Source: Blautia sp. BIOML-A1 (lineage in GTDB: Bacteria > Bacillota > Clostridia > Lachnospirales > Lachnospiraceae). From it: a DNA stretch of 30,489 nt. Each line of letters opens with the position of its first letter. Position 1 is the first letter of the stretch. The stretch spans positions 1-30,489 of the forward strand of contig NZ_WWVR01000036.1 of NCBI RefSeq assembly GCF_009883055.1. Direction: 5' to 3'. Made by a program: the position numbers and the translations under genes. Below the pieces are notes generated by a model, which was not told where the DNA came from, searched no databases, and saw nothing but the letters and a program-made list of their open reading frames with translations. Positions 1 to 11,408 of the stretch are shown here, piece by piece.

Positions 1-71
1 AAGTGTTCTTTTTTATTTTTTGCAATTCATCTCCCACCTGTAGAGGAAGGAGAATTCTTGCTATATATTAT
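1..71. mobile_element. IS200/IS605-type element end (partial)
   Basis: The segment contains a short imperfect hairpin (CTCCCACCTGTAGAGG and the facing AAGGAG) framed by GCAATTCAT on one side and AATTCTTGC on the other. This arrangement is typical of the ends of IS200/IS605 TnpB-type elements. It replaces the expected continuation of the Uma2 gene exactly after a TTTAAC sequence on the minus strand (72-77), as expected for insertion next to a TTTA-like target. The body of the element would lie left of the window. Which end this is, and whether tnpB is still present, cannot be decided here. A second end with the same GCAAGAA-hairpin layout closes the window at 30.3 kb. Confidence 0.5.
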
Positions 72-446
72 GTTAAACAGCTTAGTATAATAGTCCATCT
101 GTCTGCTGCCCGGAGAAACAATCTCGATAATCCAATCCGGCGCACCTTTACATCCTTTGTCATCCAGTTTATCAGGATCACAGATGACTGATATATCCGG
201 CTCTACATAGGTATCTGTTTTTTCATCGAGATACACTGCAAATGGAGCTGCATATACTTTGCATTTTCCGGCATGTGAGCGAATATAATCTTTTATTGCA
301 CTAGATAATTCCACCGAAATATCCTGATGCTTTCTGCTTGGCGGTGCCATGTAGTAAATATGCCCGTCAATCAGTTCCGCCCTTTTGCCGTCCGGCAGGG
401 CATAAATATCTTCTATAGTATAAGTTTCTTCTTTTAATAAAGGCAT
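27..446 (-). pseudogene. Uma2-family (DUF820) endonuclease, 3' truncated
   Basis: This encodes a PD-(D/E)XK-like Uma2 family protein. The N-terminal half is well preserved: the YTIEDIYALPDGKRAELIDG opening, then the core motifs YVEPDISVICD and APDWIIEIVSPGS that carry the acidic catalytic residues of the family. Family members run to about 180-190 residues. Here similarity stops at about residue 121 (KLFN), where the usual KYR.AGVREYWIVD stretch should follow; the last ~18 codons come from the insertion-element end. The start at 446 has AAGGA 8 nt upstream. No partner gene is visible beside it. Uma2 proteins are abundant, mostly uncharacterised, and often found as mobile, decaying copies. I read it as inactive because the C-terminal half of the nuclease fold is missing. 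Confidence 0.75.
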
Positions 447-525: not shown

Positions 526-1327
526 TTACGCCAGTTTTATTATTTTGCTATTTGGATCAGGCTTGTCGATTTCGTCCAGTCCAATTGTATCCTCCAGTAA
601 CTGTATATCGTCAATTTTCTTTTTGTCCATTACAGAGGTATACAGATCCATGGTCATCTGCAGAGTTGCATGCCCCAGATATGTCTGGACGGTTTTTGGT
701 GGAATATCAGCTTCAAAGCATCGGGTAACAAATGTATGTCGGAAGCAGTGTCCAGAAAATTTCTCCATAGTCTCCAACGGATCCCTGCTGTAATTAATTT
801 CCTTAACAATCCGGGCTATAGCGTCTGCATAAATCTGCGAGCATAGAGGAGTTCCGTAAATCGTGCAAAAAATATAATTTGTGCGCTCCCCTTTCAGTTT
901 CGGAGAGTTATTTATAACCATTTTATGTAGGACAATCTGCCTCTGCAGTGCCTCCTCACAATATTTATTCATCGGTACTGTTCATCGACTCGAAAATGTT
1001 TTTGGATCGTTTTCGTGGAAGGTCTTCCCAGTGTCGCCCTCCAATTTTTGGTATAACAATGTTTTTTCAACACGTATTTCTTTCTTGCTAAAATCAAGAT
1101 TATCCTCTGTTAGAGCAAAAAGCTCCCCTGGACGAAGACCAGTGCTAACCGCTACTCGGAACAGATTATCGTAAAATGTTCCGCTGCTACACTGAAAGAA
1201 TACCTGCTGATCTTCCTTTTCTTTCAGTTTGTTCAAAACATCTGTTACCATCAGTCGCGTAATCTCTGTCAATTTCGGGTTTCCGATGTATGGCTGTATA
1301 TTATGTTCAAAAACATATTTTGCAACA
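526..1327 (-). pseudogene. Tyrosine-type recombinase/integrase, broken
   Basis: The remnant of a phage or ICE-type tyrosine integrase covers the end of the core-binding region (HNIQPYIGNPKLTEITRL) and the whole catalytic domain. Visible catalytic motifs are the first Arg in TGLRPGE, HCFRH (HxxR), YLGHA and the nucleophile Tyr in MDLYTS. Two lesions are clear. An in-frame TGA at 982-984 interrupts the expected DPKTFSSR-TVPMNKY strand, with no change of frame, so one base change from an Arg CGA would explain it. Second, the N-terminal arm-binding half is absent: upstream of about 1327 the frame runs straight into the stop codon of the DUF6092-like gene. No xis, att site or other element genes are visible. 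It is likely a leftover of an excised or eroded element. Confidence 0.85.
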
Positions 1328-1344: not shown

Positions 1345-1611
1345 TTACAGACAGTCCACCAATATTTCAGATGCTTTTTCAAGCATGGCTGAAAAACGTT
1401 CCGGTTCTGTCAGGGCTTTTCCCTTATCAGTTTCAATACAGTTAAGAAGTTCACAATATGTTTTATTATCAGGGTCATTATTGCATATAATCTGACACAG
1501 TCTGGAAGCAGCTTCAGCAAGTCTGATTGAGCCGTAACTTGCCGGCTCTTCTGGAAGCGCTCTGGCACTGGTGATCAGATATACCAGTAATTCGAATTCA
1601 GGATTATTCAT
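1345..1611 (-). CDS. Small DUF6092-like protein
   Basis: A protein of 88 residues, mainly helical and soluble, with no signal peptide or membrane segment. The sequence FELLVYLITSARALPEEPASYG followed by RLAEAASRLCQII resembles the DUF6092 family, whose function is unknown; this assignment is from memory of the pattern and only moderately sure. I chose the ATG at 1611 because GAGGAG lies 8 nt upstream; an in-frame start at 1641 would lie deeper inside the preceding gene. It overlaps the 3' end of the nitroreductase gene by 8 nt, so the two are probably translationally coupled and act together. It is the last gene of the block, and its stop codon abuts the integrase remnant. Confidence 0.65.
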   Translation of the reverse strand: MNNPEFELLVYLITSARALPEEPASYGSIRLAEAASRLCQIICNNDPDNKTYCELLNCIETDKGKALTEPERFSAMLEKASEILVDCL

Positions 1612-2143
1612 CAATTCTCTCCTCTTCCTCAATATGATCAAAATAGCATATCTGTTCTACCGGAGGACGCTTCGGGCAACGAGGGGTACCATCTGGATAA
1701 CCTATAGAGATAAGCATCTCAATACGATATCTGTCTGGAAGTTCCAATATTTTACGAACCGCTGTATCATTGTATGATTTGATTGCACATGTTCCAAGCC
1801 CTAATTCAGTAGCTTTTAGCATGAGATTCTCAGCAGCCATTGATGCATCCATAAGGCATCCGTACACTTCAGAATTTTTACCACCCTTTCTTGATGCCTT
1901 CTCCATATCTGAGCAGACTACAAGGATGACTGGTGGTTTGCCAGAAAGCCCCGGACTAAAAAGATCTACTTTTTCTTTAAGCTGTGGATCTGTAATAAAC
2001 AGAAATCTCCAAGCCTGCAGATTACTGGCCGAAGGTGCCTGTTGAGCCGCATCTGCCAAAGTAAACAGCAACGCTCTGTCTACAGGATCAGGATGAAAAG
2101 ACCGTGTGCTGTGACGGCTCAGAATAGCTTCATTTAATAACAT
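1604..2143 (-). CDS. Nitroreductase family protein
   Basis: An FMN-dependent oxidoreductase of the NADH oxidase/nitroreductase fold, 179 residues, close to the short end of the family. Typical features in order: the N-terminal RHSTRSFHPDPVD (FMN phosphate-binding Arg/Ser region), AAQQAPSASNLQAWRF (the second FMN contact block), AAENLMLKATELGLGTCAI in the helix packing against the flavin, and ISIGYPDG at the C-terminus. The last 20 residues are acidic. AAAGG lies about 10 nt before the ATG. It follows the racemase-like gene by 52 nt and overlaps the DUF6092-like gene. In this setting it could reduce an unsaturated or nitro/imine-type intermediate of the block's pathway, but the substrate of such proteins cannot be predicted from sequence. 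Confidence 0.85.
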   Translation of the reverse strand: MLLNEAILSRHSTRSFHPDPVDRALLFTLADAAQQAPSASNLQAWRFLFITDPQLKEKVDLFSPGLSGKPPVILVVCSDMEKASRKGGKNSEVYGCLMDASMAAENLMLKATELGLGTCAIKSYNDTAVRKILELPDRYRIEMLISIGYPDGTPRCPKRPPVEQICYFDHIEEEERIDE

Positions 2144-2195
2144 ATCTTTGCTACCTTTCTGACAGCATATAGCTGATCGTTATGAACTTGTATTA

Positions 2196-2849
2196 TTATT
2201 TTTTTCTGAGATATTCGAAATAAGCGAACAATCCCTCTGCCATAACCGGGTCAATAACAGGAAGTCCTGTTTCGTTTTCCAGATCTTTGGCTATACCAAT
2301 CGTTGCAAGACCAGTGCAGGCAAGTGCAATTACTTCTGCGCCTTGTTCTTTTAACTTCAAGCCAAGTTTCAGCACACTTTCTTTTCCTTCTGGTGTCATC
2401 AGATCCAGTGTGCTATGTACACCTTCAGGTCTGCCTAGTATCATCTGATCAGGAATCATTCTCCTATATGCCTGAGGTGCATAGTCTGTGATTCCAAGCA
2501 CACCAATCTTGCTGCCATATTTAAGAGCAAGTGCTACAGTTGTCTCGCCGCCGCCAGTAACAGGAATGTCCGAGAGAACTTTACGAATCTCCGCAACACC
2601 CGGATCATCCGCACAGCTTACGATAATCATATCAACATCCGTGAAGGATTGAGCTGTTTTAACAATTTTGGGGATAGCCAGTTCACCGAGTTCAGGACTG
2701 TGTATTCCCTCATACTGGTCCGGAATACATTTAGTTTCGACCTGAAGTTCAGGGAAATATGACATAATCTGTTTGCCATGTGCGGAAAGCACCTCTTCAT
2801 CTTCTGTTGTAAGGACTCTAATCAGACCTACTTTAAATTTTTTATCCAT
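2196..2849 (-). CDS. Asp/Glu/hydantoin racemase family protein
   Basis: A protein of 217 residues with the two-Cys layout of the Asp/Glu/hydantoin racemase superfamily: Cys79 in IIVSCADDPG and Cys178 in IALACTGLATIG, each at the end of a beta strand of one half-domain. The GGGETTVALALKYGSKIGVLG segment between them is typical of the hydantoin racemase branch. Such enzymes abstract and return a proton at the alpha carbon without cofactor; some relatives are decarboxylases or isomerases. The ATG at 2849 is preferred because GGAG lies 9 nt upstream; a TTG two codons earlier is too close to it. It lies 29 nt after the M29-like gene and in the same block as AroM, DUF1177 and DUF917 genes, which fits a role in handling a chiral amide or hydantoin-like intermediate (inference). 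Confidence 0.8.
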   Translation of the reverse strand: MDKKFKVGLIRVLTTEDEEVLSAHGKQIMSYFPELQVETKCIPDQYEGIHSPELGELAIPKIVKTAQSFTDVDMIIVSCADDPGVAEIRKVLSDIPVTGGGETTVALALKYGSKIGVLGITDYAPQAYRRMIPDQMILGRPEGVHSTLDLMTPEGKESVLKLGLKLKEQGAEVIALACTGLATIGIAKDLENETGLPVIDPVMAEGLFAYFEYLRKK

Positions 2850-2878
2850 TTTCAATTTCTCCTTTATATCGTAAAAAA

Positions 2879-3823
2879 TCAGATAAGAAAAACACCATTT
2901 TCGATAACTTTAATATCATCCAGATATAATGTCGGACGCAGGACAATTCCGTCCATATGACATTCCGCTTTATTTACACCACCAAATGACGTATTGGTTC
3001 CGAAAGCAATGTGTACGGTTCCATATACTTTTTCATCTTCAAGAATGATTCCATTCAGTATAGCTGCTTCGTTAGTTCCGATTCCAAGTTCACAGAGTGT
3101 TCCGTTGGTCTCGTTTTTAAGAAGGATATCAAGATTTTCGCTCTTATCTCCTTTTACTGAACAAAGCTTTCCTCCTGAAATTGTCATATGTAAAGGACTT
3201 GCCAGTTTTCCAATACCGACCATAGATCCATCAATAATCATCTCGCCATCGGAACCATCTTCTAGCGGAGCAATATAGGCTTCTCCGGAAGGAAGATTTC
3301 CACATTTTCCGGATTCTTTATATACTCCAGGACTTGGAACACCATCCCTGCCATCGAGATTGATCGTAAGAACCTTCCCATCTTTTTCGATGCGTGCCTT
3401 GGAGGCGTTGGTGAGCATTTCTGTTACTTTTGCAGTTAATTCTTCTACTTTGCTGTAGTCGGCAGTCATGGCACCCTGTGAAAACATCTCTTTGGTAATA
3501 CCAGGCATTGTTGCTACTCTTGTACCTGCTTTCGCTGCTTCAATTCTGGCGTTCGTATGAGTGAGTGACTGGGCAGTCGGAGCAATTACAACATCAGCAG
3601 CTTTCATAGCTTCGGCAATTGCTTTAGGCGGTTCCTGTCCACTAACTTCCCTTTCTTTCATAACCATAAGGATTTTTTCGCATCCAAGATTTCCAGCTGC
3701 CTCATAGATTGCTTCGCCAATTTCTTTACGACTGTCATCTGTAATAACCAGAATTTCTTCGCCCGGTTTTACAGCCAGACATGAAGTAAGAACTCCCTCT
3801 GCTATCTTAACTAAATTTTCCAT
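2879..3823 (-). CDS. M29 aminopeptidase-like metalloprotein
   Basis: A protein of 314 residues, shorter than classical AmpS/AmpT aminopeptidases (about 410), but with all five metal-ligand motifs of the M29 fold: Glu181 in GEAYIAP, Glu245 in CELGIGTNE, His271 in HIAFGTN, and His289 plus Asp291 in ECHMDG. The N-terminal half (ILVITDDSRKEIGEAIYEAA) matches the family's Rossmann-like domain. M29 relatives include leucyl aminopeptidases and the ring-cleaving NicX-type dioxygenases, so peptidase activity is only one option. Start: the second of two close ATGs, with AGGGG 8 nt ahead; the first leaves too little room. It is separated from AroM by 126 nt containing a terminator-like hairpin, so it heads a second, possibly lower-level part of the block. 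Probably cytoplasmic, as no signal peptide is seen. Confidence 0.75.
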   Translation of the reverse strand: MENLVKIAEGVLTSCLAVKPGEEILVITDDSRKEIGEAIYEAAGNLGCEKILMVMKEREVSGQEPPKAIAEAMKAADVVIAPTAQSLTHTNARIEAAKAGTRVATMPGITKEMFSQGAMTADYSKVEELTAKVTEMLTNASKARIEKDGKVLTINLDGRDGVPSPGVYKESGKCGNLPSGEAYIAPLEDGSDGEMIIDGSMVGIGKLASPLHMTISGGKLCSVKGDKSENLDILLKNETNGTLCELGIGTNEAAILNGIILEDEKVYGTVHIAFGTNTSFGGVNKAECHMDGIVLRPTLYLDDIKVIENGVFLI

Positions 3824-3866
3824 TATCATTTCCCCTTTTCGTTATCTTTTTAATTTTTGTTATAAA

Positions 3867-3915
3867 GTAAAAAACGGACATTCCGCCGGACTTTGATGGA
3901 CCTGCGAAATGTCCG
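3867..3915 (-). terminator. Terminator-like hairpin between aroM-like and M29-like genes
   Basis: CGGACATT (3875-3882) pairs with AATGTCCG (3908-3915), with further partial pairing inside (GTCC with GGAC). On the minus strand it is followed directly by TTTTTT. It sits inside the colinear block, 34 nt after the AroM stop, so it should lower or condition expression of the four downstream genes unless they have their own start site, which I could not identify. Confidence 0.7.
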
Positions 3916-3949
3916 GAAAATACTGAATATATATAATTTATATGTCTAT

Positions 3950-4624
3950 TCAGATGTCAGTTAATTCAGAGACAACTCTGGCCAGAAGTGTTCTTGGAAG
4001 AACAACTTTCTTACCGGTTTTTTCTGCAAACATTTTTTTCATTTCCTGTGTATAACCTATACAGTCAAGAACAATCAGATCCGCATCAAGATCTTTAATC
4101 TCTTCAGCTGCCTTTTCGAGTGCATCCCAGTCGCCATATGGTGAAGCCGCAATTGCTGTTACATGATCAACATAGTTTTTCCATTTTTCTTCACATTGTT
4201 CTGTCTGAAGTGGTGATGGAGTCATGCAGATTATGCTTGATTTCTTAGTCATCAGCGGAACAAGGCGATTGAGCAGCTCACATGGATAGATCATAGGAAT
4301 ATTCTTGGCTGAAAGTGTCTCCGGAAAACTTCCGGTACAGAACATCATGATAAGACTGCATCCCTCATCTTCCATGTGGTTAATAGCATCCTGAAGTCTT
4401 GGCAGGATATGACGCTCGGCAAATGTCACAGAACTCCCATCTGTCAATCTGGAGACAAGGACATAATCATCCTTGCCGGGAGCAAACTCAGCAATCTCTT
4501 CTTTTGTAAGTCCATCCAGACCGCCTGCCTGGACAAGTTCCAGTGAATCATCAAAGATTCTTAGAATGTCTGCTGTTACATCAGTTCGCGGAGCCTGACC
4601 GATGGTAATTGCACCTATTTTCAT
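3950..4624 (-). CDS. AroM family protein
   Basis: A 224-residue protein of the AroM family. The family mark is the N-terminal IGAITIGQAPRTDVTADI, followed by the AGGLDGLTKEEI segment, VLVSRLTDGSSVTFAERHI, and a Cys-bearing MMFCTGSFP strand. A second half-domain ends in LIVLDCIGYTQ. The fold is related to the Asp/Glu racemase superfamily, with Cys95-like (FCTG) and LDCIGY cysteines in equivalent places. The E. coli namesake is adjacent to aroL but its function is not established. Here it lies 12 nt after the DUF1177 gene and before the hairpin, and AroM, DUF1177 and DUF917 genes are known to travel together in other bacteria. With the separate racemase-like gene the block carries two different members of this superfamily. 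Confidence 0.85.
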   Translation of the reverse strand: MKIGAITIGQAPRTDVTADILRIFDDSLELVQAGGLDGLTKEEIAEFAPGKDDYVLVSRLTDGSSVTFAERHILPRLQDAINHMEDEGCSLIMMFCTGSFPETLSAKNIPMIYPCELLNRLVPLMTKKSSIICMTPSPLQTEQCEEKWKNYVDHVTAIAASPYGDWDALEKAAEEIKDLDADLIVLDCIGYTQEMKKMFAEKTGKKVVLPRTLLARVVSELTDI

Positions 4625-4636
4625 ACCAAAACCTCC

Positions 4637-5575
4637 TTATTCGTTTCCGAGAGTCTGAAGATGTTTCATGCTTCCATATAATTTCTGGAGACGTGCATAT
4701 TCATCAGCATCATAGAAACTACACTGTTTTCTTCCATATGCTTTGGCAACTTCTAACATAAATCTTGCAGCTTCCTCTACGTCTGTAGCATGAGTAGCGC
4801 CTGTAGCGCATCCAGGTACCATTGTCTCTGCTGTGATAGCTACACCAACAACAGGTGCATCTGTAGCTGTACATGGCTGAAGAATACTATTTAAGTGGTG
4901 CACATCATTTCCGTAAGGTGTGATATCCTGGGTAGCCAGTGGGAATACATATGGAAGACGTCCTGTAGTGATCTGCATCAGATCAAGAAGATCTTCAGAA
5001 GTTCTTAATACATATCCCTCTTTTACTGTTGGAGAAATAGCAAAACCTCTTGTGTTAATCACACGGTTGCCTTTTGTTGTGTCAACAACAAGTAAAGCAT
5101 CAAGATCCGGAGACACTTCTTCTTTGTTTACCTGTGCCATTTCTACTGGTGAACCCATGAAAGGAACCGGATCATGCGGAGCTGTCGGAGCATGCGGACA
5201 GATATGTGTAGAAATAAACACATCACCGTCAAGATAGTCTCCTTTGTTTTGCATATCAAGCAGTTTTGCAGCGAGAGCTACCGCGCAGAGTGCGCCATCA
5301 CCGTCAGATACAAAGCCAATACGTTCCGGACGTGCGCCAATTCCGCCAAGTCTGCCAAGGAGTCCGATTGTAGGAGCATCTCCACCATTTGTCTTGCCGT
5401 TTTTACCAGGAATACGCACTTTAAGCATATCTGTGCTTCCCTTAGGGCCTACCAGTTCATAGACTTCTACATTGGCATCGGCTTTGATCCCGAGAAGATA
5501 TTTTTTAACTTCTTCTCCTGTTACAAATGAACTGTCAAGTACATCATAAGCAGCAATAATTTCTTTCATTAACAT
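4637..5575 (-). CDS. DUF1177 family protein
   Basis: A 312-residue soluble protein that I recognise as DUF1177. Conserved stretches include the N-terminal LDSSFVTGEEV, GLLGRLGGIGARPERIGFVSDGDGA, ISTHICPHAPTAPHDPVPFMGSP and VDTTKGNRVINTRGFAISPTVKEGYVL. The His- and Asp-rich middle (STHICPHAPTAPHDP) and the GDGA segment look like metal-site material, reminiscent of M20/M28-like hydrolases, but no family member has an established activity that I know of. Start at 5575: GGAGG lies 9 nt upstream. It follows DUF917 by 17 nt and precedes AroM by 12 nt, a tight operon. A role as amidohydrolase or deacylase on the imported compound is a guess only. Confidence 0.85.
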   Translation of the reverse strand: MLMKEIIAAYDVLDSSFVTGEEVKKYLLGIKADANVEVYELVGPKGSTDMLKVRIPGKNGKTNGGDAPTIGLLGRLGGIGARPERIGFVSDGDGALCAVALAAKLLDMQNKGDYLDGDVFISTHICPHAPTAPHDPVPFMGSPVEMAQVNKEEVSPDLDALLVVDTTKGNRVINTRGFAISPTVKEGYVLRTSEDLLDLMQITTGRLPYVFPLATQDITPYGNDVHHLNSILQPCTATDAPVVGVAITAETMVPGCATGATHATDVEEAARFMLEVAKAYGRKQCSFYDADEYARLQKLYGSMKHLQTLGNE

Positions 5576-5592
5576 GTTATTATTCCTCCCGA

Positions 5593-6675
5593 CTATTTAC
5601 TCAGATGACTGATTAAGTCTTTTTTAATTACATCTTCGGTTGCTTTCAGCAATTCCGGCGCATACATGGTCGGCGAAAGCTTCAGATTCTTTTTGTCTGT
5701 GGCAATTACATAAACATCAAGTCCCTCTTCCATCATGGCAGTTGTAACAGGCTCTCCTGTTTTGGCATTGATCGTCATAATTAGATCCGGGAAAGTTGCA
5801 AGACGCTCGCCATCTTTTTCGGCAGTAGCATATTCATTCCAGAATGTCATTTCACAGCCGTCAACAGCAGCATAACCTACATCGAAGCCACCAGTTGTCT
5901 CGATAGAAAAATTCTGTACCGGTCCCCTTGCAAGGACACGGCCATTCAGGAAAGTACATACACCGTTAACTGCATCCTCAACGGAAGATTCCAGTCCTTT
6001 TAAGAACGCTTTTCCTGTATCGATTGCATAACTTACACCACCAAGGGCACAGTTTTCACGGGCATAAGACACTTTTACCGGATTTCGTGCTACTGCGACC
6101 AGTCCACCTGCTTCAATAGAGGCAAGACGCACCATCTTGGACGTATGATCGATCGTTCCTTCAAAGAAGCATTCGATATGGTTTCCAGTATCTGGATTAC
6201 CGCCGACACAGGCCTGTACTGTTGTATAATCTGCAAGTCTGTGAAGATTCATGCTTCCCATTACACCTGTTGGATGAGCTCGTCCGTTACAAGGGGCATC
6301 AACAACCGGAAGTCCTGTAACAGCAGCCTGAAGCCAGCCATTTACTGTTGCTTCTCCGCCCTGTTCGTTGGTAATAATTCCGCCAATATTAAAATCACAG
6401 TTTTTCTGAAGGATTTCAACAGTTTTTGCGATATCCTTCGGAGTCATGAACTGGGCTGGCGCATTTGGTGCACCTACCAGAGAAGCTGTCAATAGTACAT
6501 CATTTTCATCCAGTTCATCGATTGTAATAAGTCTGAGATCGGTATAATCAACTGCAATCTCAGCGTATTTTCTGCCTTTTTTCGGATCGCCGCCGCCACC
6601 GCCGCCGAGGATGGTTCCTCCGGTGAGTGCAGCATCAAGGACATCTTTTGTAAGACGGATTCCTTTAGTTTTCAT
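5593..6675 (-). CDS. DUF917 / S-methyl-thiohydantoin desulfurase-like protein
   Basis: A protein of about 360 residues of the DUF917 family, now described in Pfam as S-Me-THD N and C domains (S-methyl thiohydantoin desulfurase). The family signature is the N-terminal GGTILGGGGGGDP, followed by VLLTASLVGAPNAP, NIGGIITNEQGGEATVNG, PVVDAPCNGRAHPTGVMGSM and, near the C-terminus, PDLIMTINAKTGEPVTT. Relatives are also related to the hydantoinase A/hydantoin-utilization proteins. Start: GGGAG overlaps an ATG at 6687, leaving no spacing, so the ATG at 6675 (MKTKGIRL) is preferred. It lies about 20 nt after the OPT gene. The likely task is cleavage or sulfur removal on a hydantoin-like ring brought in by the transporter; this is inference from the family name and the setting. 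Confidence 0.8.
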   Translation of the reverse strand: MKTKGIRLTKDVLDAALTGGTILGGGGGGDPKKGRKYAEIAVDYTDLRLITIDELDENDVLLTASLVGAPNAPAQFMTPKDIAKTVEILQKNCDFNIGGIITNEQGGEATVNGWLQAAVTGLPVVDAPCNGRAHPTGVMGSMNLHRLADYTTVQACVGGNPDTGNHIECFFEGTIDHTSKMVRLASIEAGGLVAVARNPVKVSYARENCALGGVSYAIDTGKAFLKGLESSVEDAVNGVCTFLNGRVLARGPVQNFSIETTGGFDVGYAAVDGCEMTFWNEYATAEKDGERLATFPDLIMTINAKTGEPVTTAMMEEGLDVYVIATDKKNLKLSPTMYAPELLKATEDVIKKDLISHLSK

Positions 6676-6696
6676 TTTATTAATCATCTCCCGTTA

Positions 6697-8373
6697 TTAT
6701 TTCTTTTTACCAAGTGATAATGTAGCCGTAAAGAAACTGTACAGAGCTGCTCCGGCAAGTGAACCGGCACCCATAATATTGAGGGTCTGCTCGTTTTCTT
6801 TGTCCTTTTTAACAAGAATGTAGCGAATAAGCAATGCGATCAGAATTGTCAGACCGTTAATAGTGGAACCAACAAGAAGACCAGTTGCAAAAAGAATACC
6901 AACCTGTCTGGATCCGCCAAGGAACTGGATGATTGCTCCCGGAATTGCCCAGATAAGCAGCCATTTAGCTACATCTCCGCCTGCGCCAGCTTCAATCGTT
7001 GCTGCAAAAGTAGCATCAACCGGTGCAAAGAGCCCCTGCGCAAAGTACTGTTTTGCCATAATTGCCACAAGTATAAAAGCTACCACAAAACCTACAATTT
7101 CACTGATATACTGCTGTTTTCTTCCTTCGAGCTCAAGTTCCTGATCTTTCCCGCATCCACGAAGGATGTAACCGCATTTAAGATCATATGCCATATCAGA
7201 GAAAGCAGGACCGGTTGCAGAAGTATAAGCAACAAGGATTCCAAGTGGAAGTGATGGGAATCCGATCAACATTCCAACAATCAGGAAAATAAGAGCTGTC
7301 GCAAATCCCGGAAACCATCCTGAGTACATTGCTGAAATACCAACAATCAGTTCAGAAGCAATAGCTGCAAAAGCTGAGAAGATAATCCAAATAATCAGCT
7401 GAACAACACCCATTTCTGACCAGATGCCTGTAATTATTGCCAATAAAATTGCTACTACCAGATATGCAACATATCCACCACCAAGGGCTTTTTTCATATT
7501 TGCCATGCTGGAGGTAAACTTACCTGCTGCACTGTCTCCGTCACCTTTCTTGAAAAGCATACGGCCGCATTGGATAAGGGACACAAGACCTGCTCCGATC
7601 ATAATACCATGGGGCATGTATTTGAACATGTTTGAAGCCATCAGATCAGCACCTTCACCGAAGATGTTTGTAATGATTGGAAAGCTACGGCCGAAGATAT
7701 CAATAATAAATCCATTTGTCTTAATGATACCGATCACAATTGATCCTACGCCAAGAGCTGTCATCGCTGCAAAATCGCCGAACCAGGAAACACCAAGAAG
7801 ATCCGTAGGAATACCGATCATTTTACCACCAACACCGATGACCATACCTACAATGAGCAAAAAAGCTTTCTTTCCCTTTTCTACAACTGCAAGGATAGAT
7901 TCTGCAGATGCAACTCCTGGAGGCCATGCTCCTTCTGCCGGAAACATTTCGCTGTCAAATGTCTTATAAAGAATTGTTGCATCAATAATGGTTGCAAGAA
8001 ATACACCAACAAGCATAGGATACATAAGATCCATTCTGCCCATAATAACCGGAATACCAATCGGAAGCAGGAAGCAGTTTGCTGCTGAGAATGTTGCTCC
8101 CGAAATTGATGTCTGAATCATATTCTGGCAGTGAATACTCTGATATTTCTTTAAAAATGCGATAGGCAGACGTGAAATGATGATTGCAAATAACGCTCCT
8201 ACGATAGATGTGTTTGGTGCGACACCCGTACGCACGATCAATTCAAGACCGATGATAGCACCAAGGACGCTCATCACAATATTCAGAATAAGAATATACG
8301 GTGAATACGCTTTTGGATGTTCTGATGCTTTGATATGCATCTGTGTGTAATCTTTCTTTGTGTTACTAACCAT
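6697..8373 (-). CDS. OPT family oligopeptide transporter
   Basis: A polytopic membrane protein of 558 residues with roughly 14 hydrophobic spans, matching the OPT superfamily. Recognisable segments are the first span LNIVMSVLGAIIGLELIVRTG, the MIQTSISGATFSAANCFLLP stretch, EGAWPPGVASAESILAVVEKG, and IIQFLGGSRQVGILFATGLLVGS near the C-terminus. OPT proteins are proton-coupled importers of small peptides, metal-nicotianamine or siderophore-type ligands and glutathione-like compounds. The start is the ATG at 8373, with GGAGGAG 5 nt upstream; a longer in-frame reading to 8439 would run through the leader. It is the first gene after its own promoter and leader hairpin, and leads the DUF917-DUF1177-AroM run, so it probably sets the substrate supply for the pathway. 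Confidence 0.9.
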   Translation of the reverse strand: MVSNTKKDYTQMHIKASEHPKAYSPYILILNIVMSVLGAIIGLELIVRTGVAPNTSIVGALFAIIISRLPIAFLKKYQSIHCQNMIQTSISGATFSAANCFLLPIGIPVIMGRMDLMYPMLVGVFLATIIDATILYKTFDSEMFPAEGAWPPGVASAESILAVVEKGKKAFLLIVGMVIGVGGKMIGIPTDLLGVSWFGDFAAMTALGVGSIVIGIIKTNGFIIDIFGRSFPIITNIFGEGADLMASNMFKYMPHGIMIGAGLVSLIQCGRMLFKKGDGDSAAGKFTSSMANMKKALGGGYVAYLVVAILLAIITGIWSEMGVVQLIIWIIFSAFAAIASELIVGISAMYSGWFPGFATALIFLIVGMLIGFPSLPLGILVAYTSATGPAFSDMAYDLKCGYILRGCGKDQELELEGRKQQYISEIVGFVVAFILVAIMAKQYFAQGLFAPVDATFAATIEAGAGGDVAKWLLIWAIPGAIIQFLGGSRQVGILFATGLLVGSTINGLTILIALLIRYILVKKDKENEQTLNIMGAGSLAGAALYSFFTATLSLGKKK

Positions 8374-8444
8374 GTTATCTCCTCCATTTCCTATAAAATA
8401 TATGTGCTCGTATCCGGTTGACAGCAGGCCAGAGTACAAAATTA

Positions 8445-8470
8445 GCCGATGTAGGAACGCCTACATCGGC
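8445..8470 (-). promoter_or_regulatory. Leader hairpin of the OPT operon
   Basis: An 11-bp perfect stem, GCCGATGTAGG (8445-8455) with CCTACATCGGC (8460-8470), and a 4-nt loop. It begins about 13 nt downstream of the predicted transcript start and 70 nt before the OPT start codon. On the minus strand it is followed by TAATTTTG, a weak U tract, so it may be a poor terminator or attenuator, an mRNA stabiliser, or a binding site. If it stops transcripts it would also end the pucR transcript. Confidence 0.6.
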
Positions 8471-8489
8471 TTCACATATGTTGTTTTGT

Positions 8490-8518
8490 ATTATATCACT
8501 TTAATTCGCTAAAAGCAT
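8490..8518 (-). promoter_or_regulatory. Predicted promoter of the OPT operon
   Basis: On the minus strand a perfect -10 box, TATAAT (8490-8495), lies about 119 nt upstream of the OPT start. At 17-nt spacing the -35 position reads ATGCTT, a poor match to TTGACA, which is what one expects of a promoter that needs an activator. The PucR-type regulator gene ends just upstream and is the obvious candidate. Confidence 0.5.
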
Positions 8519-8549
8519 TGGTGGTAACACACTTTTTTTAATTAAATAT

Positions 8550-8564
8550 TGTGCATGGTGCACA
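8550..8564. promoter_or_regulatory. Palindrome TGTGCA-TGG-TGCACA, candidate operator
   Basis: A perfect 6-3-6 inverted repeat lies about 67-81 nt upstream of the predicted OPT transcript start, just past the pucR stop codon. Position and symmetry suit a dimeric activator. It does not match the purine-box motif I know for B. subtilis PucR, and no second copy was noticed elsewhere in the window. Confidence 0.35.
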
Positions 8565-8571
8565 TTTGTTT

Positions 8572-9783
8572 TTAATGTATATACATTTTTAATTTTATAG
8601 CAAATTCTAATTTATCCATCATATCTGGATCCTCCAGACTGCAATGTAGTATTTCTTCTATCTTGCTGATTCTGTGTGCCATGGTATTTCGATGCAGAAA
8701 CAGTGCCTCTGCTGCCAGTTTACGTGAACAATTATTATGAATAAATGCTTCAAGAGTATCAAGAAGTTTTGTGCCGTGTACACGGTCATAGGTTACCAGT
8801 GGACCCAGCTTCTTTTTGATAAATGCCAGTGCTTCCTTATCAGCAGACATGAGTAACATAATACGATCATATTGAAGATTAGATAAAAAAACCTGAGACC
8901 ATTGCTGTTTTCTTATATTACGAACCAAAAATCCCTCTTTTATCTGCTGATAGGTATTGGGAAGCGCCAGATAATCTTCTACTATATCGCTGATGATCGC
9001 AGAGCACATACAGTTATTGATTTCGCATGTCTTTTGAATCATATCTTCTGTCATTTTCTTGATCATGGACTCATTTATTGAAGAAATTGTGATCGCATAA
9101 CATATTTCTTTACCGCATATAACTACATTTTTGATGTGATGATTATTAAGAACTCGGGATATACCCTTTATCTGGGATTCCTTCTTTATTTCCAAAAGAA
9201 AAGAATTCTCTGATATTTCCAGAGAAAGGGCAATCACACGAAATGGTTCAGATGGCCACTGAAGAGAAGCGATTCTATATTCTACTTCCTCGGTCTGTGT
9301 AACTTTTCCATTAATAATATCAAAAAATAGTTTTCGATCCAGTTCAGATTTATTCTGACGTCCGATCTGATAACGGGTATCAAGTGCAACATTGCTTCTG
9401 GATTCCACAATTGCAGTCATTATTGGAAAGGTAAGTTCTGTAAAGCCCGCATTATTGTTGAGAAAGAACAGCGGAAGTTTTAATTCATCTGCCAGCTGAA
9501 GAGCTTCCTTGGGAAAATCATCAAAAAAACGTGTTTTTATTGCAAGAGCTGACGCATTCGCATCGTTCATATCTCTTATAATCTGAAGAAGAGCCTCTTT
9601 ATCATTTCGTATCACATATCCAGTGGTTATCAAAATCAAATGTTCTCTGAGCCACGGTTTGATATTTGGCTGCTCCATCATATCAAATACTTCAACCTTA
9701 CGTAAAATACCTTCTTTTCCTGCAACAAGCGAAGCGTCTCCATTATTCCAAATTTTAACTATATCTTTAACAAGTAAATCCAT
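8572..9783 (-). CDS. PucR family transcriptional regulator
   Basis: A 403-residue regulator with the standard PucR layout. The N-terminal ligand-sensing PucR domain spans about residues 1-125 (DIVKIWNNGDASLVAGKEG, then the LILITTGY strand). A middle CdaR-type domain spans about 130-290. The C-terminal HTH_30 domain (about 340-400) contains LEAFIHNNCSRKLAAEALFLHRNTMAHRI, where the LHRNTM-RI helix contacts DNA. Members activate purine, amino-acid or other catabolic genes when they bind the inducer. AGGAG lies 6 nt before the ATG; it starts 9 nt after the AEC gene stop, so it is cotranscribed with that carrier. The OPT operon follows in the same direction behind a weak -35 promoter and a palindrome, making it the likely target. 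Confidence 0.9.
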   Translation of the reverse strand: MDLLVKDIVKIWNNGDASLVAGKEGILRKVEVFDMMEQPNIKPWLREHLILITTGYVIRNDKEALLQIIRDMNDANASALAIKTRFFDDFPKEALQLADELKLPLFFLNNNAGFTELTFPIMTAIVESRSNVALDTRYQIGRQNKSELDRKLFFDIINGKVTQTEEVEYRIASLQWPSEPFRVIALSLEISENSFLLEIKKESQIKGISRVLNNHHIKNVVICGKEICYAITISSINESMIKKMTEDMIQKTCEINNCMCSAIISDIVEDYLALPNTYQQIKEGFLVRNIRKQQWSQVFLSNLQYDRIMLLMSADKEALAFIKKKLGPLVTYDRVHGTKLLDTLEAFIHNNCSRKLAAEALFLHRNTMAHRISKIEEILHCSLEDPDMMDKLEFAIKLKMYIH

Positions 9784-9792
9784 TTTTCTCTC

Positions 9793-10725
9793 CTATAATG
9801 ATATCAGACAGAACAGCAGCGGTATGATCAACATACAAAGCAAAGTTGTCGTTACCACAGCTGTAGAGGCATATTCTCCGTCCAGATTATATTGTTCTGC
9901 AATCATACTGGAAGTTGTCATTGCTGGTGCTGCACAGATCAGCATAAGGATCATACTTTCAATTTCTGAAAGAAAATGACGAGAAATGAAGTATATTATC
10001 AGTGGGAGTGCAAATGATTTTGTGAAAAACAGGACCAGTATGGACTTATACTTAAAAATATTGGTAAGTTTCATAAATCCAAGACTGCATCCAAGGTAAA
10101 CCAGCCCCCAACTGTAGCAGGTATTGCCAACAGAACCAATGGTACTCAAAATTATGTCCGGAACAGAAATATGAAAACTAGTCAGACATAAACCCAGTAG
10201 GATTGAAAGGAAAATTGGATTCATAATGATCTTTTTCCAGGAATTCTCTTTTAGTCCGATTCCATTTGTAAATAATGTAACACCCAGAGTCCAGACCAGA
10301 GTCGTATCAATAACGGAACATATAGGAATATATACATTGCCGCCCTGATCACCAAACAGTGTCATGATCAGAGGAATCACCAAAAAGCCATAATTGCCAC
10401 CTACAGAACATCCACAATGAACATTGGCTGTAGTTCCTTTAAGATGACAAATGTGGCTTCCAAGGATTCCTCCTGCTGCCATAACAAAATACATAAGAAT
10501 CTGTGATAAGACCATTTTTCCATATTGAGTCATTGTCTGAAAGGTGGTCTGATTTTCAAGGATCAGACCAATCGTCAGTGCCGGTAGCGCAATCCTAAGT
10601 AAAAATCCGGAAATAGAGGGCATTGCTTCTTTTTTTATTATACCTGTGCGTGAAGCAGTAAAGCCTATGAGAACAAGTAAAAGGAAACCACCCATTTTAG
10701 GCAGAATCGCCATCATATAATTCAT
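9793..10725 (-). CDS. AEC family transporter (auxin-efflux-carrier type)
   Basis: A 310-residue membrane protein with about ten hydrophobic spans, the size and shape of bacterial AEC carriers. Typical pieces are the first span GGFLLLVLIGFTASRTGIIKKEAMP, LLRIALPALTIGLIL, the GGNYGFLVIPLIMTLFGDQGG half-repeat motif and CAAPAMTTSSMIAEQYNLDG near the C-terminus, which carries the conserved P-A. AEC members export or exchange small organic anions such as malate, or auxin in plants. The ATG has AGGAGG 5 nt upstream. It shares a promoter with pucR, which follows 9 nt later. In the setting of the OPT block it could export a product, or take up an acidic intermediate; direction cannot be told from sequence. 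Confidence 0.85.
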   Translation of the reverse strand: MNYMMAILPKMGGFLLLVLIGFTASRTGIIKKEAMPSISGFLLRIALPALTIGLILENQTTFQTMTQYGKMVLSQILMYFVMAAGGILGSHICHLKGTTANVHCGCSVGGNYGFLVIPLIMTLFGDQGGNVYIPICSVIDTTLVWTLGVTLFTNGIGLKENSWKKIIMNPIFLSILLGLCLTSFHISVPDIILSTIGSVGNTCYSWGLVYLGCSLGFMKLTNIFKYKSILVLFFTKSFALPLIIYFISRHFLSEIESMILMLICAAPAMTTSSMIAEQYNLDGEYASTAVVTTTLLCMLIIPLLFCLISL

Positions 10726-10955: not shown

Positions 10956-11408
10956 CTATTGTAATAAGATCCCTTCCTGATATCCAAGTGCAAAGAAAAG
11001 CGTACCAATATTCAAGTGCTGTCCCTGCGACATTTCCGGAATTAGTTTTTCAACCTCGACATATAACATGGCTCCTGCTGCAAACCGTGCTAAAAGCAAC
11101 CTGTCCTTTCTTGCATGCAGTCGTTTCAAACATGGCAATTTCTTTTTCGCATTTGCATATGGATGCCTTGCATTAAAGTAAAACTGATTATTTGAGAGCG
11201 TGGCCTTTTTAGCATTTTTATAAAAATCTTTTGCTGAAAGTCTCGTCTCTACTCCTGTTAAATGTAAAAAATGATCTATCGGAAATGAAACTTCAAAATA
11301 TTCATTATACATACAAATAAGTCTTACCTGCCAAATTCTGACTATACATGCTTGCCGAATCTATAATATTTTCCGTATTGCATTTTTCTTATCTGTCTTT
11401 GTTGCCAT
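10956..11408 (-). pseudogene. PBECR4-type nuclease (phage-Barnase/ColicinE5-RelE-like), frameshifted
   Basis: The downstream part (from an ATG at 11312, 118 residues) reads YNEYFEVSFPIDHFLHLTGV, LSAKDFYKNAKKA, FYFNARHPYANAKKKLPCL and ends IGTLFFALGYQEGILLQ, which resembles the PBECR4 domain, one of the small toxin-like RNase folds of phage and mobile proteins. The true start seems to be the ATG at 11408 (MATKTDKKNAIRK, GAGG 5 nt upstream). That frame meets TAG after 15 codons. The next stretch (DSASMYSQNLAGKTYLYV) is open in another frame, and the original frame resumes at YNEYFEV. Two small losses that together equal three bases would explain this. So the gene is likely dead, unless the 118-residue piece is used. 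No antitoxin is seen next to it. Confidence 0.6.

Follow-up and report, generated by a model that had tools for sequence, protein, structure and literature searches.

A PucR-linked gene block of Blautia as a candidate system for importing and degrading cyclic dipeptides

Which compound is handled by a ten-gene block of Blautia sp. BIOML-A1 that combines a PucR-family regulator, an oligopeptide-type transporter and a row of putative enzymes? The block lies in a 30,489-nucleotide stretch of DNA (contig NZ_WWVR01000036.1, positions 1 to 30,489, forward strand), which is called the window here. Ten open reading frames (ORFs), all on the minus strand, run from position 10725 to 1345 in the ORF list of the window, and 10/10 products match Pfam families above the gathering score: Mem_trans, PucR with HTH_30, OPT, the N- and C-terminal domains of S-Me-THD (DUF917), DUF1177, AroM, Peptidase_M29, Asp_Glu_race, Nitroreductase and DUF6092. 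An initial sequence-only reading had described ten colinear genes at this place, which the ORFs, their strand and the Pfam matches bear out, and had proposed a peptide-like or hydantoin/thiohydantoin-like substrate; the peptide-type side of that proposal is favoured here and the (thio)hydantoin side is the weaker one. In the favoured reading, cyclic dipeptides (2,5-diketopiperazines, DKPs) or closely related compounds are taken up and degraded under the control of PucR, a proposal whose chances seem evenly balanced and which is drawn mainly from a cyclodipeptide oxidase (CDO)-type gene pair, from peptide importers, and from the precedent of NozR, described below.

Chocolate and kimchi are among the foods that contain DKPs. 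In excerpts of a 2013 study, the tested peptidases did not hydrolyse DKPs, and the responsible enzymes were stated to be unclear (PMC3852281; this and the other papers with PMC numbers are cited from parts of their text). Questions left open in print are the role of CDO-like enzymes outside the gene clusters of cyclodipeptide synthases (CDPSs) and their O2-free operation in anaerobes (PMC11055893). The operon would provide a compact set of regulated genes on which DKP breakdown and the role of non-CDPS CDOs could be tested, and a candidate function for DUF1177, AroM and this branch of DUF917, which are repeatedly found together, in several phyla as well as in archaea.

The CDO-type pair and the conserved gene company

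The CDOB family is PF19585 (DUF6092), and a CDO consists of an A subunit with a nitroreductase fold and a B subunit, often encoded by overlapping genes (PMC11055893). In the window, the nitroreductase gene (NTR; 1604..2143, minus strand; Pfam Nitroreductase, E = 8.6e-31) and the DUF6092 gene (1345..1611, minus strand; Pfam, E = 8.9e-22) overlap by 8 nt, given the probable ATG of the latter at 1611. Judged from sequence, the two are a CDO-type pair, CDOA and CDOB. The top two matches of CDOA in the PDB are the CDO A subunits 9exv_A (6.3e-24) and 8uc3_A (1.5e-21), and the best matches of CDOB are the CDO B subunits 8uc3_D (3.1e-4) and 9exv_C (1.2e-3). The motif Glu-Pro-x-x-Tyr-x-x-x-Arg, which includes the catalytic Tyr, is present in 11/11 aligned DUF6092 sequences (the window and 10 relatives), and AlbA residues R24, R28, S54, N55, C135 and S139 are kept in CDOA (pairwise alignment; R175 falls outside it).

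For comparison, 77 loci (L numbers below) were taken from a DUF1177 scan of genome contigs, with homologues counted only at 50 bits or more. At L003, one 286-aa ORF, which also has the DUF6092 motif, carries both CDO domains at the corresponding position of the operon, a natural fusion. The sequence-only reading had given the nitroreductase a reduction to perform; this assignment gives way to an FMN (flavin mononucleotide)-type dehydrogenase/oxidase of cyclic dipeptides as the better reading, because the protein pairs with CDOB, and the fusion and the PDB matches point the same way. Two arrangements occur: the CDO genes stand downstream of the racemase gene (Race) in L001, L003 and L017, with one gene between in L013, or beside OPT and divergent from DUF1177 in L019-L022 and L052, with AEC between in L016 and L057. 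A 360-aa frame of genome G232 may be a second fusion. Searching for homologues of DUF6092 returned 57 proteins, which do not enter the counts given here. A nitroreductase stands at a like place in the operons of L066-L071, L075 and L076 (about 289 aa in the two scanned, L069 and L071); the haloarchaeal protein was considered as a CDO and dropped, the DUF6092 domain being absent in L069 and L071.

Homologues of the block proteins were found at the 77 loci in the following numbers: DUF1177 76, AroM 60, M29-like 46, OPT 42, Race 42 and DUF917 40, and more rarely PucR 30, NTR 12, DUF6092 10 and AEC 6. Many of these loci end at contig borders, so that absences are upper bounds, and in GC-rich loci shadow ORFs mask some genes, as happens to DUF1177 in L069 and L072. 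DUF1177, AroM, M29-like and Race occur jointly at 37 loci, with DUF917 added at 32 and with OPT as well at 24. Neighbouring homologues (within 1.5 kb) are nearly always on one strand (DUF1177-AroM 53/53, AroM-M29 43/43, M29-Race 35/35, DUF917-DUF1177 27/29), a pattern that is not due to chance. All ten homologues are present in the order of the window and at 97-100% identity in L001 (Blautia sp. Marseille-P3087). Of the genomes searched, the nearest is G001, with 32% of sampled words in common with the window and with DUF1177 gene coordinates equal to those of the L001 record. Parts of the core recur in Lachnospiraceae, Moorella, Clostridium ljungdahlii, Actinopolymorpha, Streptomyces, Serratia/Pantoea (OPT-DUF1177, mostly plus AroM) and Haloferax/Natronosalvus; Haloferax volcanii, among the control genomes of the family scans, has DUF1177, DUF917 and AroM. 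The neighbourhood comparison of DUF917, DUF1177, AroM and OPT that had been proposed with the sequence-only reading thus finds the set conserved from clostridia to haloarchaea, and the counts support a conserved block that is linked to PucR, looks catabolic and has an importer of the peptide type.

The importer itself varies. At 6/8 haloarchaeal loci (L067-L071, L075), dipeptide-type ABC genes (SBP_bac_5, BPD permeases and ABC ATPases by Pfam matches of representatives) stand in the place of OPT, and at Lacrimispora-type loci (L024-L027, L029) DUF1177 and AroM lie beside dipeptide-type ABC genes and M20 peptidases. One class of importer can thus replace another, and most are of the peptide type. 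The gene order DUF917-DUF1177-AroM-M29-nitroreductase-Race is seen in haloarchaeal L066, L068, L070, L071 and L076. In six CDO-bearing loci (L016, L019-L022, L052), the sole DUF917 seen is diverged (38-41% identity to that of the window) and lies near the CDO pair, not beside DUF1177; two DUF917 genes are present in each of L042 and L045.

Co-occurrence was counted in 398 genomes drawn from the phylum, the identity of this set across family scans being taken from equal counts and genome labels. CDOB was found in 11 genomes, DUF1177 in 46, DUF917 in 64 and AroM in 41 (45 at E 0.001, less four with matches weaker than 1e-10: G113, G149, G260 and G286). DUF1177 and AroM share 36 genomes (4.7 expected), DUF1177 and DUF917 24 (7.4 expected), AroM and DUF917 24 (6.6 expected), and CDOB and DUF917 9 (1.8 expected), in 8 of which they lie at most 10 kb apart. 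AroM and CDOB share 4 genomes (1.1 expected, p 0.019) and are within 10 kb in 2. Regions were taken from 31/46 DUF1177 genomes, plus G001 as L001. At the 31 DUF1177 loci of this sample (those with a DUF1177 profile match among 40 examined), AroM was found 25 times, Race 23, PucR 19, DUF917 18, M29-like 17, OPT 14 and Dpp-type permeases 9.

Within about 9 kb of 11 CDOB matches (all but that of G001; 10 genomes, G215 having two), M29-like genes were found 8 times, DUF917, PucR and each of SBP5, DppB and DppC 7 times, M20 4, Race 3, DUF1177 2, and AroM and OPT once each. By these counts, CDO pairs have genes for import, regulation and breakdown-type functions around them, with DUF1177 absent in most cases. 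A possible mixed cluster lies on contig C50 of G275 (L118): besides a CDO pair it has Hydantoinase_A, ABC genes for peptide transport, PucR and a DUF1177 whose matched frame contains stops.

The enzymes, a possible route and other substrates

Two proteins of the racemase superfamily are encoded, as the sequence-only reading had it, and both are of the two-cysteine type. Race (2196..2855, minus strand; Asp/Glu/hydantoin racemase family, Pfam 2.4e-25) has invariant Cys 81 and 180, and AroM (3950..4624, minus strand; Pfam 1.6e-86) has invariant Cys 96 and 188; both cysteines are kept in 41/41 Race and 59/59 AroM sequences, the window included. In the PDB, AroM finds a chance-level match only, and the best match of Race is 2eq5 (4.3e-60), named hydantoin racemase by its depositors. 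NozR, a homologue of Asp/Glu racemases, isomerises DKPs via a Cys pair (PMC10156859).

The DUF917 protein (5593..6687, minus strand; Pfam N and C domains, model pLDDT 93.6) belongs to the S-Me-THD family of Pfam, and its structure model finds only two chains of 2o3i, a protein without known function, in a Foldseek search of the PDB at E of 0.001 or less. Against the NCBIfam desulfurase models NF058529 and NF058532 it scores 286 bits (cut-off 440) and 270 bits (cut-off 450). The thiohydantoin desulfuration that had been proposed for DUF917 in the sequence-only reading is not upheld by these scores, and G001 has no match to Hydantoinase_A.

The DUF1177 protein (4637..5575, minus strand) is predicted to have an M42/M28/M20-type zinc-exopeptidase fold, with an active site that is probably altered relative to those enzymes. 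A search of the PDB with its sequence gives nothing at E of 1 or less. In one weak profile alignment (P about 0.001-0.002), Pro127-His128 stand opposite the Glu-Glu pair of M20, and no usable alignment of the DUF1177 profile was obtained with M42 and M28 proteins (sets of 3 and 5). The M29-like protein (2879..3829, minus strand) matches Peptidase_M29 (4.2e-12) over profile positions 183-352 of 406, with NicX (7cn3, 1.5e-7) as its best PDB match. In alignment with the full-length M29 proteins L172 and L173, the Glu, Glu, Glu, His, His and Asp which we take to be the metal-binding residues are all present, so that the intact M29 metal site described earlier holds; among 25 relatives, that of L050 lacks several of them.

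Based on homology and analogy, the following route can be proposed. The substrate would enter through OPT, or at other loci through the dipeptide-type ABC transporter in its place. Race and/or AroM might invert an alpha-carbon by a two-cysteine mechanism, acting on DKPs by analogy to NozR, and CDOA-CDOB with FMN would then dehydrogenate the Calpha-Cbeta bond, passing electrons to some acceptor. DUF1177 and/or DUF917 might open the ring, and the M29-like metalloprotein might split the linear product, giving an order of isomerase, dehydrogenase, ring opening and peptide cleavage. We infer the DKP substrate together with its import by OPT, the order of steps, binding of PucR and the electron acceptor. 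The core without CDO would probably handle the same kind of substrate, CDO being an add-on that widens the range. A more far-reaching form of the proposal, which is tentative and somewhat doubtful, is that the block represents the first genetic system for bacterial DKP catabolism, distributed from clostridia of the gut to haloarchaea. It would combine a peptide importer that can be exchanged, two racemases, a cyclodipeptide dehydrogenase working anaerobically and independently of O2, and DUF1177 as a new ring-opening hydrolase (exopeptidase fold, different active site).

Several observations weigh against a DKP substrate. An ordinary nitroreductase, 4dn2, is the third PDB match of CDOA at 1.5e-20, near the CDOA chains, so that the CDOA match alone is not decisive. 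AlbA P136, V137 and G138 are replaced by Ala, Ile and Lys in the window CDOA, and the flavin-site C135-P136-V137 is called conserved in CDOAs (PMC11055893). The covalent-FMN Cys115 is replaced by Asp; in the same source, the covalent-flavin Cys is reported only in CDPS-associated CDOAs and Asp in its place in most non-CDPS types, so that the window pair is filed with the latter. Characterised CDOs need oxygen (PMC11760959), and Blautia is an anaerobe. CDO is present at 11/77 DUF1177 loci (10 pairs and one fusion), and DUF1177 and CDOB share only 4 genomes (1.27 expected, p 0.028; within 10 kb in 3), with co-occurrence p-values here and above that ignore shared ancestry. The DUF1177 core may therefore act on another substrate. 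In L030-L033, a TAXI-type binding protein (NMT1_3) precedes DUF1177 and no peptide importer is seen. The step order is guesswork. Finally, 3/11 genomes (G275, G341, G410) have Hydantoinase_A no more than 10 kb from CDOB.

The last point leads to catabolism of a five-membered ring of the hydantoin, thiohydantoin or allantoin type, in which DUF917 would open or desulfurate the ring, Race and AroM would be hydantoin-type racemases, PucR would sense a ureide and the CDO-like enzyme would dehydrogenate the ring. The S-Me-THD membership of DUF917, the closeness of Race to 2eq5 and the Hydantoinase_A neighbours are consistent with this substrate class, which is also suggested in the excerpted text of PMC11055893. 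It is nevertheless unlikely: the DUF917 protein falls far under both desulfurase cut-offs, only 1/46 genomes (G275; contig ends limit this count) has Hydantoinase_A within 10 kb of DUF1177 and G001 has no match to it, the importers are mostly of the oligopeptide type, and M29 and M20 peptidase-type partners are ill-suited to a ureide. Amidohydro_1 is too common to inform (at least 53/53 genomes); in G410, one copy is some 3 kb away from CDOB.

Equally improbable is a role in the use of linear odd peptides (with D-residues, isoaspartyl or dehydro-peptides), imported by OPT or ABC systems, cleaved by DUF1177 and M29-like peptidases and with D-residues recycled by the racemase-type pair, while the CDO-like enzyme would act on a dehydro-residue. 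Peptide importers, the predicted exopeptidase-like fold of DUF1177, and M20 and further peptidase-type proteins near DUF1177 would suit it; however, DUF917 and the CDO pair are left unexplained, and DUF1177 appears to lack the Glu-Glu pair of peptidases in the weak alignment above, the sole usable one.

A role in making or tailoring a secondary metabolite, like that of the CDOs investigated to date, which come from biosynthetic CDPS clusters (PMC11055893), is very improbable, given the importers, PucR and peptidase-type genes around many CDO pairs and the finding of no CDPS in 11/11 CDO genomes, an absence which is not proven because the control genomes were silent too.

Layout and control of the block

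Among the candidates, catabolism of DKPs or close relatives remains the favoured function, and control of the block by PucR is part of that reading. The PucR-family regulator, with a PucR domain and a C-terminal HTH_30 by Pfam, is encoded at 8572..9783 (minus strand). Upstream of it lies the AEC (auxin efflux carrier-type) transporter gene (9793..10725, minus strand; Pfam Mem_trans 1.2e-28), which would be accessory because its homologue is found at few of the 77 loci. The strong AEC-pucR promoter reported earlier is present as TTGAAA-17-TATAAT, with 11/12 consensus matches; the promoter scan gave 38 promoter-like sites where 29 were expected, so that a consensus match alone is weak evidence.

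The sequence-only reading had also placed a promoter and a palindrome upstream of OPT, and both are seen, as the extended -10 element TGATATAAT (8490..8498, minus strand) below a perfect palindrome, TGTGCA-N3-TGCACA (8550..8564). The latter, a candidate PucR operator, has no mismatch and is the only exact match in the window. With up to one mismatch, it occurs at 12 sites in the 1.38 Mb of the 77 loci; 11/12 lie between pucR and the first structural gene (one of these being L001, almost identical to the window), and the twelfth precedes DUF1177 (L049). Of 22 loci at which a structural gene comes next after pucR, 15 have the extended -10 motif behind pucR, that of L055 being a chance-like match within a hairpin. 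PucR would bind the palindrome and switch on the extended -10 promoter of OPT.

The OPT gene (6697..8373, minus strand; Pfam OPT 6.2e-22) probably starts at ATG 8373 and not, as in the longest ORF, at TTG 8439. Its leader contains a 12-pair hairpin with a U-rich tail (8444..8471 within region 8430-8480, minus strand; z -4.1), a candidate attenuator or 5' stabiliser of OPT that might act as a second control. In 14 aligned sequences (12 distinct), 97.2% of cells are paired and three pairs are changed on both sides. Paired cells and covariation score exceed those of all 500 shuffles; two-sided pair changes were reached by 14/500 shuffles and further pair types by 331/500, a mixed outcome. The covariance model scores strongly in 15/42 sources, each time between pucR and OPT (the window, L001-L006, L008, L010, L012-L015, L017 and L018, 14 of which built the model), and matches 11/60 genomes of the genus, some being the same loci and positions being only partly checked. 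There is no match in L009, where DUF1177 directly follows pucR, and only a weak one (E 0.0069) in L011, where DUF917 does. In Rfam, the hairpin has no match at the gathering threshold.

Gaps between genes of the block are mostly 9-52 bp. Two are wide: about 200 bp precede OPT, and 120 bp separate AroM from the M29-like gene. The second of these gaps contains a terminator-like 12-pair hairpin followed by UUUUUU (3875..3915, minus strand; z -4.0), which may split the operon. Because of these gaps and the hairpin, a single unbroken transcript is not assured.

Outside the block, a mobile-element remnant lies just downstream: fragments of a tyrosine integrase at 526-1272 (minus strand; ORFs 1272-982 and 972-526, in one frame with an in-frame stop between), with Phage_integrase matches of which the first (1272-982) is just under the cut-off. 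A Uma2-family putative nuclease is encoded at 27-446 (minus strand), a PBECR4-domain ORF (phage Barnase-EndoU-ColicinE5/D-RelE-like nuclease) lies upstream of AEC at 10956-11312 (minus strand), and a T-box leader (Rfam RF00230; 25588-25843, minus strand) is immediately upstream of ORF 25559-23838.

Comparison with known systems

The sequence-only reading had held that this combination is not a known pathway. No described pathway was found in the literature, which agrees with it; the gene company, however, has partly been in print since 2024, when non-CDPS CDO pairs were noted in Blautia, in clusters with racemase, DUF917, AroM and OPT genes whose role was left open (Andreas and Giessen 2024, PMC11055893). 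A literature search, with most subscription journals and preprints outside its scope, found no paper on DUF917 together with DUF1177, only one unrelated paper on DUF1177, and none under six names of DKP-hydrolase-type enzymes or under at least three of five thiohydantoin/ergothioneine terms. New here are the predicted zinc-exopeptidase fold of DUF1177 with its probably altered active site, the exchange of OPT for dipeptide ABC transporters at other loci, and the conserved palindrome and leader hairpin before OPT.

Like the window, the published non-CDPS clusters combine CDOA and CDOB with a hydantoin-racemase, DUF917, AroM and OPT or ABC dipeptide transporters, whereas, in the excerpted text, no pathway is assigned to them and purine/hydantoin or secondary metabolism is suggested; DUF1177 and M29 do not appear in the main text (PMC11055893). 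AlbAB and NdasCDO (8uc3, 9exv) share with the window pair two overlapping genes, a nitroreductase-fold A subunit, a PF19585 B subunit and the catalytic Ser/Tyr; unlike them, the window pair has no CDPS gene found with it, Asp in place of the covalent-flavin Cys, and an anaerobic host. The predicted fold of DUF1177 is that of M42/M28/M20 zinc exopeptidases, from which it differs in having no sequence match in the PDB and, in the weak alignment, Pro-His for Glu-Glu. The DUF917 protein has near full-length homology to the thiohydantoin and S-methyl thiohydantoin desulfurases (NF058529, NF058532), but as it lies under both cut-offs it is not the same equivalog. NozR, like Race and AroM, belongs to the Asp/Glu racemase superfamily with two catalytic Cys and gives a precedent for DKP substrates (PMC10156859); it is biosynthetic, and the likeness is drawn at the level of the superfamily.

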